From: Klebsiella planticola ATCC 33531
Lineage (GTDB): Bacteria > Pseudomonadota > Gammaproteobacteria > Enterobacterales > Enterobacteriaceae
Length of the DNA stretch: 64,000 nucleotides
Direction of reading: 5' to 3'
NCBI RefSeq assembly: GCF_000735435.1
Contig: NZ_JMPP01000003.1
Location: forward strand, 1 to 64,000
The number at the start of each line of letters is the position of its first letter. The first letter of the stretch is position 1. The notes beneath the pieces are model-generated. The model did no database searches. It had not been told where the DNA came from and saw only the letters and a program-made list of their open reading frames with translations. This document shows positions 3,338-58,182 of the stretch, one piece after another. Both the position numbers and the translations under genes were made by a program.

Positions 3338-3376
3338 GGGGGGTATTCCTTATCTATCTAATCGTTGATTAATCTG

Positions 3377-3546
3377 GAACCTGTCCCATTGCACTCTTTG
3401 TTCTTCATACTTCCGGCTGTATCTTTGTTGGCTGCGCTTCCTCATCCCTGTCACATAGTTCACTATGCTCCAGGGAATTCGCGCGCTTGCCGCCGCGATA
3501 CATCCAAAATTATTTTGAACAACTAAAAGTGCAATAAGACAGGTTC
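3377..3546 (-). repeat. Long inverted repeat in the pdhR-aceE leader, loop filled by ERIC
   Basis: The left arm, 3377-3399 (starting GAACCTGTC and containing ATTGCACT), is complementary to the right arm, 3525-3546 (AGTGCAAT, then GACAGGTTC), with about two mismatches in about 20 bp. On the minus-strand transcript this forms a hairpin just upstream of aceE. The ERIC element occupies its loop. From memory, E. coli K-12 has the same hairpin here with a short loop. The function is unknown; it could affect mRNA stability or termination between pdhR and aceE. Confidence 0.75.
3399..3524 (-). repeat. ERIC element (intergenic repeat)
   Basis: About 126 bp imperfect palindrome matching the Enterobacterial Repetitive Intergenic Consensus, read on the minus strand: TTCAAAATAATT end, GGCGGCAAGCG, a central AGCATAG...CTATGTGAC, then GCGCAGCCAAC and GAAGTATGAAG. 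It closely resembles the copy at 54697-54826. It is transcribed inside the pdh operon and nested in the inverted repeat described separately. Confidence 0.88.
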
Positions 3547-3578
3547 TGCGTTTAGTTGCCGCGCTCTAAAAATGGCGC

Positions 3579-52530: not shown

Positions 52531-52600
52531 GTCATGTCCTTAAAGCACGCGAAGAAAACGAAAAAAGCCAGCAGAAGTCATCTGCTGGCGGGTGATTTTA

Positions 52601-52685
52601 TACTCTATCTATTTCAAGTGACAGGCTGGCGACCGAAACGTTATGGCTCAGTCAACTGGCCTGGGTCTGAAAGAGGATAAGTACA
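52601..52685 (-). repeat. ERIC-like palindromic insert within sgrS
   Basis: 85-bp element with inverted-repeat ends: TACT...TTTCA...CAGGC...GACTGA on one arm, and TCGGTC...GCCTG...TGAAA...AGTA on the other. The end reading GAGTATA on the minus strand agrees with about 26 of 36 bases of the ERIC terminus as I recall it. The centre is unlike full ERIC, so it is a shortened or related element. Flanking TA suggests target-site duplication. Confidence 0.8.
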
Positions 52686-52718
52686 CACCAATACTCAGTC
52701 ACACATGATGTGGGCAAG

Positions 52719-52871
52719 TCAATGATCAGAGGTCTGTGACGTAACTCCCCACTGCATCAGCTCGCCAAGAATCTTCTGCTGTCTCCCTGCCATCAGGCGG
52801 GCCAGCCATGACGCGTCCTGCGTCGCAGAAAAGTAGCGTTGGTAGAACTGTTTCGCGGTAGACCTCATCAT
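52719..52871 (-). CDS. sgrT: SgrT, PtsG inhibitor peptide
   Basis: 50-codon ORF within SgrS, starting ATG ATG at 52871 after the RBS GAGGAGGT. The core KQFYQRYFSAT and the end GELMQWG match the E. coli SgrT pattern (RQFYQHYFTAT ... EGLMQWD). It is longer than the 43-residue E. coli peptide, with an N-terminal MMRSTA extension. SgrT inhibits glucose uptake by EIICB-Glc. The gene ends upstream of the base-pairing segment, and the palindromic insert does not touch it. Confidence 0.9.
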   Translation of the reverse strand: MMRSTAKQFYQRYFSATQDASWLARLMAGRQQKILGELMQWGVTSQTSDH

Positions 52872-52958
52872 ATTCACCTCCTCGCTTCATCGGAATGCAT
52901 TATTGGCCTAATATAGGGATTAATAAATTGCTGAGTTTTCATCAGGAGTTCCTCTTTT

Positions 52959-54614
52959 ATGTCTTCTGCTCGTCTGCAACAACAGTTCATCCGCTTATGG
53001 CAGTGCTGCGAAGGTAAATCGCAGGAGACAACCCTTAACGAACTGGCGGAGATGCTCTGCTGCTCGCGCCGCCATATGCGTACGCTGTTGAATATGATGG
53101 AAGAACGCGGCTGGTTAACCTGGGAAGCGGAAGCCGGGCGCGGCAAACGTTCAAAGCTGGCTTTCCTGTATACCGGCCTGGCGCTGCAGCAGCAGCGGGC
53201 CGAGGATCTGCTGGAACAGGATCGTATCGATCAGCTGGTCCAGCTGGTGGGCGATAAGGCCGCGGTTCGTCAGATGCTGGTCTCGCATCTGGGCCGCAGC
53301 TTCCGTCAGGGGCGGCATATTCTGCGCGTTCTCTACTACCGGCCGATGAAAAACCTGCTCCCCGGCAGCGCGCTGCGCCGCTCGGAAAACCATATCGCCA
53401 GGCAGATCTTTAGCGCCCTGACGCGGGTAAATGAGGAAAACGGGGAACTGGAAGCCGATATTGCGCACCACTGGCAGCAGCTTACGCCCACCCACTGGCG
53501 TTTTTTTCTCCGCCCCGGCATTCATTTTCACCACGGGAGAGAGCTGGAGATGGAGGATGTCATTGCTTCGTTGCAGCGCAGCAACAATCTGCCGCTCTAC
53601 TCACATATTGAACGTATTGCCTCCCCCACCGCCTGGACGCTGGATATACATCTGACGCAACCCGATCGCTGGCTACCGTGGCTGCTCGGCCAGGTGTCGG
53701 CCGTCGTCTTGCCGCGTGAATGGCAGTCGATGGAGAATTTCTCGGCAATGCCGGTAGGTACCGGGCCTTATGCGGTGGTGCGCAACAATCAAAACCAGCT
53801 GAAGATCCATGCTTTTGACGATTATTTCGGTTACCGGGCGTTAATTGATGAAGTTAACGTCTGGGTCCTGCCAGAGATTAGCGAAGAGCCCAACGGCGGC
53901 CTGACGCTACAGGGGACCACGCAAAGTGAGAAAGCGGTTGAGAGCCGGCTGGAGGAAGGGTGCTACTATTTGCTGTTTGATGCCCGCACTCCCCTCGGCA
54001 GCAATCTCGCGGTTCGCCAGTGGCTCAGCTATCTGCTACAGCCCGCCAATCTGCTGTATCACGCCGGTGAACAGTACCAGGGCAACTGGTTCCCGGCCTA
54101 TGGTCTGCTGCCCCGCTGGCACCACGCTCGCAGTCATGCCTGTGAAAAACCGCCGGGGCTGGAGTCTGTCACCCTCACCTACTATCGGGATCACGTCGAA
54201 CACCGCGTGATGGGCGGGATCATGGCAACACTGCTGGCGGAGCATCAGGTCAAGCTGGAGATTCAGGAGCTGGAATACGAAGAGTGGCACCGTGGCGAGG
54301 TGGTCAGCGATATCTGGCTAAACAGCGCCAACTTTACCCTACCGATTGATTTTTCTCTGTTTGCCTTACTGTATGAGGTCCCGCTGATACGACATTGTAT
54401 TCCTGTCGACTGGGAGCAGGATGCCCGTCGCTGGCACGCAGGCGAGCTCAACCCGGCGACCTGGAGCCAGCAACTGCTGGCCAATCAAACCATCGTGCCG
54501 CTGATCCACCACTGGCTGATGATCCAGGGGCAGCGCAGTATGCGTGGCGTAAGAATGAATACGCTCGGCTGGTTTGATTTCAAATCCGCATGGTTTGCGC
54601 CGCCGGATCCCTGA
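52959..54614 (+). CDS. sgrR: Transcriptional activator SgrR
   Basis: 551-residue activator of sgrS under glucose-phosphate stress. The N-terminal winged helix includes [21 protein letters not shown] (about residues 29-50). It is followed by a solute-binding-protein-like domain (SBP family 5) from about residue 160 that senses the sugar phosphate, ending [23 protein letters not shown] precedes the ATG. Divergent from sgrS, with the regulatory region between 52892 and 52958. Confidence 0.97.
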
Positions 54615-54677
54615 TAGCCCTCCCGGCAGGCGCTGAAGCGCTTTCCGTCAGTTCACAAAATCATTACACTATCGCCG

Positions 54678-54884
54678 TTCTCAACGGGGTGCTGATATAC
54701 GTACATAATCTCATTCGGGTTGCATCAAGACGGCAAGCAAGTGAATCCCCAGCAGCATAGAAAACTATGTGACTGGGGTGAACACGCGATGCTAACGCAG
54801 AGGCAGCGCGAAGGATGAAGTGTATAGGCTGAGAAAATACCCGTCGAACCTGATCCGGATAACGCCGGCGAAGGGATTTGAGGC
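54678..54884 (+). ncRNA. TPP riboswitch of thiBPQ, interrupted by ERIC in P3
   Basis: Thi-box aptamer. P1 is CTCAA (54680-54684) with TTGAG (54878-54882). P2 is GGGT (54687-54690) with ACCC (54839-54842). The conserved CTGAGA is at 54829-54834. AACCTGATC is followed by CCGG/CCGG P5 (54855-54868) and GCGAAGGGA. P3 begins at GCTGATATAC (54691-54700) and closes with GTGTATAGGC (54820-54829), but its loop is a 130-bp ERIC repeat. The pyrimidine- and diphosphate-binding core bases look intact. Confidence 0.93.
54697..54826 (+). repeat. ERIC element inside the TPP riboswitch
   Basis: About 130 bp from TATACG to GTGTATA. Contains the ERIC landmarks GACGGCAAGCAAGTGAATCC, the central AGCATAGaaaACTATGTGAC, GGGGTGAAC and AGCGCGAAGGATGAAG. 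The ends are complementary and extend riboswitch stem P3. Confidence 0.93.
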
Positions 54885-54930
54885 CTACTCAAAATCCTTT
54901 GCCCCCCCTTTGTTTATGAGGTGCAAAGTG
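54871..54930 (+). promoter_or_regulatory. Expression platform of the thiB riboswitch
   Basis: Two mutually exclusive stems. Stem A pairs 54871-54882 with CTCAAAATCCTTT (54888-54900) and uses the 3' strand of P1. Stem B pairs CTTTGC (54897-54902) with GCAAAG (54923-54928), which reaches the GTG start and encloses the GAGG RBS. P1 formation with TPP would free stem B and block translation; without TPP stem A leaves the start open. This is a sequence-based inference. Confidence 0.65.
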
Positions 54931-55911
54931 TTGAAAAAATTACTCCCGCTGCTGGCGCTGGTCGCCGCTCCCGCGTTTGCTAAACCTGTACTCACCGTCT
55001 ACACCTATGACTCCTTTTCGGCAGACTGGGGCCCTGGACCGGTAGTGAAAAAAGCCTTTGAAGCCGACTGCAACTGTGAACTGAAGTTCGTGGCGCTGGA
55101 AGATGGCGTTTCGTTGCTTAATCGTCTGCGGATGGAAGGTAAGAATAGCAAAGCCGATGTGGTACTCGGCCTGGATAACAACCTGCTGGAAGCGGCTACG
55201 CAGAGCAAATTGTTCGCCAAAAGCCAGGTACCGGCCAGCGCGGTCACGGTCCCGGGCGGCTGGGATAACGACACTTTTGTGCCGTTTGATTACGGCTATT
55301 TCGCCTTTGTCTACGACAAAAACAAGCTGAAAAACCCGCCGAAAAGCCTGAAAGAGCTGGTGGAAAGCGATCAAAAATGGCGCGTGATCTACGAAGATCC
55401 CCGCACCAGCACCCCGGGTCTGGGGCTGCTGCTGTGGATGCAAAAAGTGTATGGCAAGCAGTCGCCGGAAGCCTGGCAAAAACTGGCGGCGAAAACCGTC
55501 ACCGTCACCAAAGGCTGGAGCGAGGCCTACGGTCTGTTCCTTAAAGGGGAAAGCGACCTGGTTCTTAGCTACACCACATCGCCGGCCTACCACATCATTG
55601 AAGAGAAAAAAGACCAGTACGCGGCCGCCAGTTTCGCCGAAGGCCACTATCTGCAGGTTGAAGTCGCCGCGCGCACCGCCGCCAGCAAACAACCGGAGCT
55701 GGCGGAGAAATTCCTCAAGTTTATGGTATCTCCGGCGTTCCAGAATGCCATCCCGACCGGCAACTGGATGTATCCGGTCACCCAGGTTGCGCTACCCGCG
55801 GGCTTTGAGACATTACCGAAACCGCAAACCACGCTGGAATATACCCCGCAGCAGGTCGCCGCAGAACGTCAAAACTGGATTAATGCATGGCAACGCGCCG
55901 TCAGCCGCTAA
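54928..55911 (+). CDS. thiB: Thiamine ABC transporter periplasmic binding protein
   Basis: 327 residues from GTG at 54928 (GTG TTG AAA AAA), with RBS GAGG; the longer frame through the riboswitch is rejected. Signal peptide of about 18 residues (MLKKLLPLLALVAAPAFA) before KPVLTVYTYDSF. Binds thiamine, TMP and TPP in the periplasm. Conserved FVPFDYGYFAFVYDK and SYTTSPAYH line the ligand site. Its 3' end overlaps thiP by 25 bases in another frame. Confidence 0.97.
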   Translation: MLKKLLPLLALVAAPAFAKPVLTVYTYDSFSADWGPGPVVKKAFEADCNCELKFVALEDGVSLLNRLRMEGKNSKADVVLGLDNNLLEAATQSKLFAKSQVPASAVTVPGGWDNDTFVPFDYGYFAFVYDKNKLKNPPKSLKELVESDQKWRVIYEDPRTSTPGLGLLLWMQKVYGKQSPEAWQKLAAKTVTVTKGWSEAYGLFLKGESDLVLSYTTSPAYHIIEEKKDQYAAASFAEGHYLQVEVAARTAASKQPELAEKFLKFMVSPAFQNAIPTGNWMYPVTQVALPAGFETLPKPQTTLEYTPQQVAAERQNWINAWQRAVSR

Positions 55912-57497
55912 ATATCGGCTGGCTGGCGCCGGGTCTGACGGCCGCTGCGCTGCTGGTCGCCGTCGCACTGGCCGCATTCCTCGCGCTCTGGGGCAGTGCG
56001 CCGGAGGCGTCGTGGCGTTCGATTTTCAGCGACAGCTATCTGTGGCACGTTATCCGTTTCTCTTTCTGGCAGGCGTTTCTCTCCGCGCTCTTCTCCGTCG
56101 TACCGGCGATTTTTCTCGCCCGCGCCCTCTATCGTCGTCGCTTCCCGGGGCGTACGCTGCTGCTGCGCCTGTGCGCCATGACGCTGATTCTGCCGGTACT
56201 GGTGGCCGTCTTTGGTATTCTCAGCGTCTATGGCCGTCAGGGCTGGCTGGCGACACTGTTTAACGTCGTCGGCTGGCAGTGGGATTTCTCGCCGTATGGA
56301 CTGCAAGGCATCCTGCTGGCGCACGTTTTTTTCAATATGCCGATGGCAACCCGGCTGCTGCTGCAGGCGCTGGAGAATATCCCCGGAGAGCAGCGCCAGA
56401 TCGCCGCCCAGCTGGGCATGCGCGGCTACCACTTTTTCCGTCTGGTGGAGTGGCCCTGGCTACGGCGGCAAATTCCCCCGGTCGCGGCACTGATCTTTAT
56501 GCTCTGCTTCGCCAGCTTTGCCACCGTGCTGTCGCTCGGCGGCGGCCCACGGGCCACAACGATTGAGCTGGCAATCTACCAGGCGCTGAACTTTGATTAT
56601 GACCCGGCCCGTGCGGCGATGCTGGCGCTGATCCAGATGGTCTGCTGTCTTGGGCTGGTGCTTCTCGCCCAGCGCCTGAGCAAGGCCGTTGCTATCGGCA
56701 CCACGCAAGTTCACGGCTGGCGCGATCCGGACGATCGCCTGCACAGTCGCCTGAGCGATACCGCGCTGATCGTTCTCACGCTACTGTTACTGCTGCCCCC
56801 GCTGCTGGCGGTCGTGGTCGACGGTCTGAATAACAACCTGCTCAGCGTCCTGGCGCAGCCCGCATTGTGGCAGGCATTCTGCACTTCGTTACGCATCGCG
56901 GTTTCCGCCGGTCTGCTCAGCGTCATGTTAACGATGATGCTGCTGTGGAGCAGCCGTGAATTGCGTCTTCGTAAGCGACCGCTGGCGGGCCAGACGCTGG
57001 AACTCAGCGGTATGCTGATCCTTGCAATGCCGGGAATCGTGCTGGCGACCGGCTTCTTTTTATTGCTCAATAACAGTATTGGACTGCCGGCATCCGCCGA
57101 CGGGATTGTGATCTTCACCAATGCGCTGATGGCTATCCCCTATGCCCTGAAGGTGCTGGAAAACCCGATGCGCGATATTGCCGTCCGCTACGGTATGCTC
57201 TGTCACTCTCTGGGCATGAGCGGTTTTACCCGCTTGAGGGTTATCGAGCTGCGCGCATTAAAGCGTCCGCTGGCCCAGGCGCTGGCGTTTGCCTGCGTCC
57301 TGTCCATCGGCGATTTCGGCGCCGTGGCGCTGTTCGGTAACGAACAATTCCGTACGCTGCCGTTCTATCTGTACCAGCAAATTGGCTCTTATCGTAGCCA
57401 GGATGGCGCCGTCACTGCCCTGCTGCTGCTACTGCTGTGCTTTTTACTCTTTACCGTGATTGAGAGACTTCCGGGACGTGATGTTAAAACTGAATGA
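55887..57497 (+). CDS. thiP: Thiamine ABC transporter permease
   Basis: 536-residue fused permease with two binding-protein-dependent transport domains and about 12 membrane segments. Two EAA-type loops are visible ([23 protein letters not shown] near 180 and [23 protein letters not shown] near 450). Start MATRRQPLN inside the thiB end. Overlaps thiQ by 17 bases. Confidence 0.97.
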
Positions 57498-58182
57498 TGT
57501 GACCTGGCTTTACCAGCATCTGCCGATGCGCTTCACGCTCTCCGTCCAGCAGGGTGAACGCCTCGCCGTGCTCGGCCCCAGCGGCGCGGGCAAAAGCACG
57601 CTGCTCAATCTGATCGCCGGCTTTCTCCCCCCGGTGAGCGGCACGATTCTGATTAACGACCAGCCTCATACCACTACGCCGCCGGCCCGGCGTCCGGTAT
57701 CGATGCTGTTTCAGGAAAACAATCTCTTTCATCATCTTACCGTCCGCCAGAATATCGCTCTCGGGATGCATCCGGGGCTGAAGCTTAACCCGGTGCAGAC
57801 CGCCAGCCTGCAGACGATAGCCGGACAAATGAGCATCGATTCACTGCTGGACAGATTACCGGGCGAGCTCTCCGGCGGACAGCGCCAACGCGTGGCGCTG
57901 GCGCGCTGTCTGGTCCGGGAACAGCCGGTCCTGCTGCTGGACGAGCCTTTTTCTGCACTCGACCCCGCACTGCGCCAGGAGATGCTGACGCTGGTGAGCG
58001 ATGTCTGTCAGCGTCAGCATCTGACGCTGCTGATGGTGTCACATAGCGTGGAAGATGCCGCCCGCATCGCGCCGCGCTCGCTGGTGGTGGCCGACGGGCG
58101 GATAGCCTGGGACGGCGCGACCGAAACGTTGCTCAGCGGCAACAGCAGCGCCTCTCACCTGTTAGGTATTAGCGCGCGATAA
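57481..58182 (+). CDS. thiQ: Thiamine ABC transporter ATP-binding protein
   Basis: 233-residue ABC ATPase. Walker [10 protein letters not shown] (about residues 32-40), Q-loop LFQENNLF, signature [12 protein letters not shown] and Walker [12 protein letters not shown] are intact. The ATG at 57481 ([11 protein letters not shown]) lies inside the thiP end. Completes ThiBPQ; it overlaps the 3' end of yabI, which is convergent, by 14 bases. Confidence 0.97.

Follow-up and report, generated by a model that had tools for sequence, protein, structure and literature searches.

The window considered here, meaning the whole stretch of 64,000 nt of Klebsiella planticola ATCC 33531 that was analysed, carries sgrR, the thiB leader and thiBPQ in that order. 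A TPP riboswitch adjoins the thiamine genes thiB, thiP and thiQ (named with NCBIfam) on their upstream side. In this leader, CTCAACGGGGTGC (54680-54692) is followed by GCTGATATAC, an ERIC element and GTGTATAGGC, and from CTGAGA an ordinary TPP aptamer extends to 54882, with ACCTGATCC...GCGAAGGG reaching 54875. The core letters of the aptamer (GGGGTGC, CTGAGA, ACCCG, CCTGATC and GCGAAGGG) are unchanged, and partners are present for P1, P2, P4 and P5. A first-pass annotation had placed an ERIC between the two halves of the thiBPQ aptamer and had stated that all conserved aptamer parts remain; both statements are borne out, the element measuring 127 bp with P3 strands on both sides. The features of the locus are as follows.

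54680..54684, + strand: 5' strand of P1, CTCAA, with its partner TTGAG at 54878-54882 (sequence)
54685..54692, + strand: 5' strand of P2 and beginning of P3, CGGGGTGC (in the window aptamer, P2 pairs with a mean probability of 0.91)
54691..54700, + strand: 5' strand of P3 continuing into the ERIC, GCTGATATAC (sequence, RNAfold)
54700..54826, + strand: ERIC, a 127-bp MITE extending P3 (model match 54696-54827, 136.5 bits)
54771..54780, + strand: ERIC-internal GACTGGGGTG, a mimic of the P2 5' strand that misleads the Rfam model
54820..54829, + strand: right end of the ERIC and 3' strand of P3, GTGTATAGGC (sequence, RNAfold)
54829..54834, + strand: conserved J3-2, CTGAGA (sequence, alignment to RF00059)
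54839..54843, + strand: 3' strand of P2, ACCCG (sequence, RF00059 alignment)
54848..54875, + strand: P4/P5 and pyrophosphate side, ACCTGATCCGGATAACGCCGGCGAAGGG (RF00059 alignment)
54867..54903, + strand: predicted anti-P1 hairpin with a putative role in the TPP-free state (RNAfold)
54878..54882, + strand: 3' strand of P1, TTGAG (sequence)
54897..54928, + strand: putative helix CTTTGC(C)CC / GG(T)GCAAAG sequestering the ribosome-binding site (from the letters)
54928..55911, + strand: thiB (TIGR01276, E 7.9e-175), with a probable GTG start at 54928 judged from GAGG spacing
55887..57497, + strand: thiP (NCBIfam)
57460..58182, + strand: thiQ (NCBIfam; listed ORF, true start probably further in)

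The ERIC of the thiB leader occupies approximately 54700-54826, its canonical ends being set by alignment with other copies. Folding and the covariance model describe the element as an imperfect palindrome of about 127 bp with complementary ends, and its length, terminal inverted repeats and many copies are shared with the ERIC/IRU/RU-1 elements. Used as a BLAST query, 54696-54830 gives 15 matches within its own genome, itself included, and a covariance model built from 12 own-genome copies yields 74 matches there at E<=1e-3 and 37-93 in five other genomes. Tandem ERICs also occur in the same genome at C67:121168 and 121293. The Rfam family V_AS5 (Vibrio RNA AS5) aligns along the ERIC with 33-52 bits against a cut-off of 96 (window 54698-54822; L023, L035, L063), which suggests that V_AS5 is itself an ERIC-type repeat. 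Reported roles of ERICs concern mRNA stability and gene fusions (PMC2229807, PMC10969869), and riboswitch formation by such repeats has been deemed conceivable (PMC10969869); the thiB copy differs from these published roles in being part of an aptamer arm.

Pattern scans of the leader (54560-54960) returned no promoter-like sequence with a promoter consensus and no intrinsic terminator, the latter result fitting translational control. Upstream, at 52560-52891, an SgrS match contains about 85 extra nt before its terminator, and the one in K. pneumoniae (L035 536-946) exceeds it in length.

Folding and detection of the leader

In the RNAfold prediction for 54676-54945 (-88.3 kcal/mol, z -3.36), P3 runs straight into the ERIC stem, GCT 54691-54693 pairing with GGC 54827-54829 and ATATAC 54695-54700 with GTGTAT 54820-54825. 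The earlier claim that the inserted ends pair and that P3 continues into the element thus holds for the window, but it does not extend to most relatives: the predicted P3-base probability is at most 0.07 in 19 of 24 ERIC-bearing thiB relatives (the exceptions being L023, L066, L067, L086 and L100), a low value ascribed to a 5' bulge. On these predictions, the straight run of the window allele is atypical among ERIC-bearing thiB relatives.

The minimum-energy fold of the whole leader lacks P1 and P2, since GGGG 54686-54689 pairs with CCCC 54904-54907 and TCAAC pairs with GTTGA 54930-54934. With both helices absent, this fold resembles a ligand-free state; RNAfold ignores TPP. Folded alone, the window aptamer shows predicted pairing probabilities of 0.91 for P2 and 0.85 for the P3 base. 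Across thiB aptamers, the mean P2 probability is 0.83 in nine full-ERIC alleles, 0.80 in 16 deleted alleles and 0.91 in 55 without ERIC, and the corresponding RNAfold means for the P3 base are 0.19, 0.15 and 0.41. P1 stays at about 0.10 in all three groups, so that the folding tool by itself is insufficient to show an aptamer. A decoy P2, in which GGGGTG of the ERIC would compete for ACCC, was considered and rejected, because folding predicts almost no competition (about 0), with scarcely any pairing between the ERIC and the P2 3' strand.

The anti-P1 hairpin (54867-54903) together with the next hairpin folds with -25.6 kcal/mol (z -3.59) and overlaps P1 and P4. The sequestering helix CTTTGC/GCAAAG is absent from the predicted fold of the downstream leader region. 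For E. coli, published work describes an anti-P1 stem as well as a pause close to the start of thiB (PMC5234074).

The ERIC also affects detection of the riboswitch. The RF00059 match to the thiB leader (E 1.5e-8) reaches 48.1 bits against a cut-off of 54.3 and starts at the misplaced position 54764, inside the ERIC, because the model takes GACTGGGGTG as a P2 strand; at the Rfam gathering cut-off the window has no TPP match. This cut-off is a detection threshold and not a property of the molecule. Among the alleles tried, seven with a full ERIC score 37.1-50.3 bits with the start misplaced, and four stub alleles score 68.0-73.5. Among 40 TPP matches from 12 further genomes, ten score under the cut-off, and by position all ten are leaders with an ERIC-derived P3, before thiB (6) or thiC (4). 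The Rfam TPP model thus misses or mis-delimits ERIC-bearing switches, which matters for annotation and for constructs cut at Rfam borders.

ERIC-derived P3 arms in related thiB and thiC leaders

The genome of the window has four TPP riboswitches (RF00059), located before thiB, thiC, thiM and a tenA-like gene, the last scoring 119.4 bits with the tenA model against its cut-off of 130. A check for an ERIC-free thiB aptamer elsewhere in the genome found no second one. The thiM and tenA-like leaders have short P3s. The thiC riboswitch also holds an ERIC in P3, arranged as GGAGTGCC, ERIC, GGCTGAGA in the same orientation. The earlier annotation, which had proposed an alignment of related thiB leaders, had described one case; the pattern recurs, and in two riboswitches, thiB and thiC. 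ERIC-derived P3s, either full-length or as stubs with complementary ends, occur in thiB or thiC leaders of Klebsiella, Raoultella, Citrobacter, Kluyvera, Kosakonia and others.

For thiB, 80 named loci (the best 80 of 271) were compared, of which 79 have a readable aptamer. An ERIC-derived P3 is present in 24 of these 79 leaders, full-length in eight and internally deleted in 16. The motif pair CTGAGA...CCTGAT is retained in 79 of the 80 loci, including all 24 with ERIC; a leader without it would escape the ERIC reading, L032 being the one such case. In L032, a Pluralibacter MAG contig, the 5' half of the aptamer is missing and only the 3' end is kept, through either loss or an assembly chimera. 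R. ornithinolytica ATCC 31898 (L023) carries two tandem ERICs in the thiB P3 (2640-2901), joined at GTGTATACAC, a junction compatible with TA target duplication. The full-length thiB ERIC of L093 carries a further insert; it and the gcvH-gcvP ERIC of L247 contain a similar, palindrome-rich extra insert of about 70 nt (compared by eye), as if a second repeat had nested at one ERIC site.

On the thiB/thiP tree, the ERIC label needs 8 changes, compared with a shuffled mean of 21.6. It is found in 10 of 11 rows of the Klebsiella/Raoultella group (window counted), in 9 of 11 rows of one Citrobacter group, in three Kluyvera rows and in L072, L086 and L099. R. ornithinolytica L023 stands nearest to the window in that tree, with 96% across 2600 columns. 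The record behind L072 bears the title Chryseobacterium sp. 18061, but its place in the tree is within Enterobacteriaceae, so the label is probably wrong. The thiB leaders of K. grimontii and C. youngae ATCC 29220 have a short P3 with no recognisable ERIC and yet lie inside ERIC-bearing groups, which shows the thiB arm to be dispensable. A single origin of the thiB inserts was considered; the label changes 8 times on the thiB/thiP tree, and an element-core tree (p-AU 0.084) neither shows nor rejects such an origin. The search turned up no recent empty site of the thiB insertion, and no place covering >=80% of the window leader was found in 5,426 E. coli genomes.

For thiC, an ERIC-derived P3 was found in 28 of 54 leaders, with 13 full or nearly full elements, two part-deleted ones and 13 stubs. 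This set is enriched, as nine of the 28 positives come from the own genome or from genomes of the pattern scan, and thiB cases guided the choice of the remaining 45 genomes; among those 45 named genomes, 19 are positive. A less biased figure comes from a family scan with an exact pattern and a gap of 105-135 nt, a design blind to stubs and other lengths: 18 of 295 genomes matched, 11 of them with an ERIC, while the remaining seven loci gave no ERIC match to a profile. The stubs differ in what they retain. That of K. pneumoniae (L122) reads TTTTCCA...GTGGAAAA with a short loop resembling the right part of ERIC, Citrobacter stubs keep part of the left interior, and K. oxytoca-type and R. ornithinolytica stubs are reduced to a 7-bp hairpin. 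Since the window genome carries a full thiC ERIC that clusters with those of other thiC leaders, deletion is the best explanation for the R. ornithinolytica stub.

In the element-core tree, 12 thiC ERICs, from Klebsiella/Raoultella, Citrobacter, Kosakonia and further genomes, lie on one side of a branch (62/84), and ten of them are grouped at 99/96, values that rest on few columns with an unsettled bootstrap. A common origin of the thiC inserts fits. The thiC ends, TTTCCAC/GTGGAAA, differ on both sides from the usual TATACAC/GTGTATA. A strict pattern for these ends was found in 4 of 16 genomes, with one match each and always beside the thiC aptamer; the outer TTTTCC/GGAAAA pairs may be either altered ERIC ends or part of an older P3. 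Together, these data point to a recurrent pattern, apparently of old date, in which two TPP riboswitches use a mobile repeat as their P3 arm.

Tolerance, selection and insertion preference

Very likely, the thiB leader functions as a TPP off-switch, with a mobile ERIC lengthening its P3 arm. It shares with TPP riboswitches of the thiB/thiC type of Enterobacteriaceae (THI element, RF00059) the core letters, the place upstream of thiBPQ and, presumably, the P1-based off-switch logic, and it differs from usual RF00059 members in the 127-bp mobile element within P3 and in being under-scored and mis-delimited by Rfam. The ERIC sits in the P3 loop and leaves P1, P2, P4, P5 and both binding motifs unaltered in sequence. 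Its complementary ends are predicted to prolong the P3 helix, and the insert would form a single long arm directed away from the binding pocket. Binding of TPP would close P1 and block the anti-P1 hairpin, and the freed CUUUGC may then cover the thiB ribosome-binding site. The ERIC arm itself would be mainly tolerated cargo. Its interior is lost over time in relatives, where the ends persist as a short P3 hairpin, and such a hairpin could then influence ligand response, judging from published K. pneumoniae thiC data combined with the ERIC origin assigned here. The findings are thus best read as a P3 that tolerates the ERIC in a switch that still works, with the element eroding into a P3 hairpin able to tune the ligand response.

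It is rather unlikely that the ERIC arm has been co-opted for regulation (ligand discrimination, folding time or RNase access) and is kept by selection. The placement of thiC ERICs of several genera on one side of the tree makes that insert look old, and its ends are altered on both sides. Two-sided changes occur in 7 of 45 pairs in the thiB set (nine sequences; shuffled mean 4.1, as high in 3/500 shuffles) and in 3 of 41 pairs in the thiC set (13 sequences; shuffled mean 1.2, as high in 20/500), with 98.3% and 97.7% of cells paired, respectively. All 13 hand-grouped deletion events leaving >=22 nt spare both ends, with a chance product of 2.8e-4; this test assumes uniform break points, and deletions in palindromes may spare the ends for mutational reasons.

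The same measures were applied to a control ERIC outside any riboswitch, sought in 26 genomes (L225-L250) and flanked by genes taken to be gcvH and gcvP. This element is common to several genera, shows internal deletions and may itself be an intercistronic hairpin. In nine full copies, it has 96.5% paired cells and two-sided changes in 5 of 38 pairs (shuffled 3.1, 50/500), and its two-sided cells number 11 against a shuffled 3.8 (0/500). Several measures lie above shuffles in the thiB and thiC sets, but the same is true of the control, so covariation, a feature of ERICs more widely, was rejected as proof of selection specific to the riboswitch. The control deletions, again hand-grouped, spare the ends in three events (L230/L232, L231 and L241) and hit them in two (L226-L229, with mismatched outer ends, and L246, with one end lost), a pattern less strict than in P3 but drawn from few events. 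Because this contrast is weak (13/13 against three sparing and two not), the deletion pattern was likewise rejected as proof, and no proof of selection is claimed. A free measure of end pairing, based on the best 7-nt window, was dropped because many registers make high values expected by chance. ERIC-wide covariation, few deletion events and the dispensable thiB arm of K. grimontii and C. youngae ATCC 29220 together favour tolerance with later tuning.

A further structured place with an ERIC, the third, lies in the window at 3342-3575, where an Rfam tp2 hairpin has the element between the arms CCTGTC..TTGCACT / AGTGCAA..GACAGG, in a gap flanked by what are presumably pdhR-like and aceE-like ORFs. 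This hairpin and the tandem ERICs in the R. ornithinolytica thiB P3 are what would be expected if ERICs favoured apical hairpin loops, so that the P3 cases would reflect target choice and not tolerance. Such a preference is nevertheless unlikely, because scanning 40 other ERIC regions (20 own, 20 from five other genomes; some representing the same site in two genomes) against Rfam at the gathering cut-off placed none of the ERICs within an RNA family match. A symR match lies immediately next to an ERIC (L189 1628-1705, R. ornithinolytica genome), and the thiM and tenA-like leaders keep short P3s. This check covered Rfam families, with an own-genome share of about 20 of 74 ERIC matches besides thiB, thiC and tp2. 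Finally, a decaying riboswitch damaged by the ERIC, leaving thiBPQ constitutive or silenced, would accommodate the sub-threshold Rfam scores of full-ERIC alleles, the GGGGTG decoy and the minimum-energy fold without P1 and P2, but it is highly improbable given the conserved CTGAGA...CCTGAT, the near-zero decoy pairing with P2 retained in the aptamer fold, the persistence of the arrangement across genera and the reported function of the K. pneumoniae thiBPQ switch (PMC12632268).

Ligand response and the origin of P3 arms

The reading of a tolerated ERIC with later tuning draws on published work in K. pneumoniae, where Kp01 (thiBPQ) and Kp04 (thiC) are reported to be thiamine-responsive (PMC12632268). 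Together with the relatives that keep the arrangement, this supports the earlier suggestion that the switch may still work, although the Kp01 construct may not have included the whole ERIC. Kp04 has an extended P3 of 24 nt, UUccaUgcgcaggcUaacgUggaa (Hubenthal et al. 2025, PMC12632268), at the same aptamer place as the ERIC of the window; the window allele differs in carrying a full-length element before thiB instead of a stub before thiC. The L122 stub contains these 24 nt without a single mismatch, and the stub can be aligned with the termini of thiC-P3 ERICs. Deletion of nt 42-48 reportedly weakens the thiamine response and confers a pyrithiamine response, which the single deletions of G42, U43 and A46 each also produce (PMC12632268). 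By the assignment made here from sequence, nt 42-48 would correspond to the right end of ERIC, the named bases fitting GUGGA in the ERIC-derived 3' strand. Such effects of P3 deletions would also suit a co-opted arm, but moving the K. pneumoniae thiC stub into an E. coli switch did not transfer the phenotype (PMC12632268). The word ERIC does not occur in the main text of that study, which describes two insertions and leaves their origin unnamed in the sections seen.

Comparable arrangements are known from other systems. In Rickettsia, palindromic elements lie in tmRNA and RNase P RNA genes (Ogata et al. 2002, via PMC2229807), likewise a palindromic mobile element within structured RNA, but with another element, other RNAs and no ligand switch. 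Riboswitch "variable insertions" have been described as long stem-loops at tolerant sites, including an optional P3a in TPP aptamers (Barrick and Breaker 2007, PMC2258182); they resemble the present insert, but a mobile-element origin is unmentioned in the part of that account seen. Literature searches of titles and abstract starts returned no earlier description of an ERIC in a riboswitch, the Yersinia ERIC paper, the 2006 study by Wilson and Sharp and the 2002 paper on thiamine genomics lying outside their scope.

It can be proposed, tentatively, that riboswitch arms can arise from mobile palindromic repeats: ERICs would have entered at least two TPP P3 loops, their ends would have replaced or extended P3, and their remnants would help to set ligand choice, as in K. 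pneumoniae thiC. This would give a concrete origin for riboswitch "variable insertions", in which a mobile repeat with its own stem fits an arm and leaves the sensor unbroken, and a proposed origin for the K. pneumoniae P3 extension already known to change ligand discrimination. The full, tandem, trimmed and absent forms at one site also constitute a natural series for testing the role of P3.
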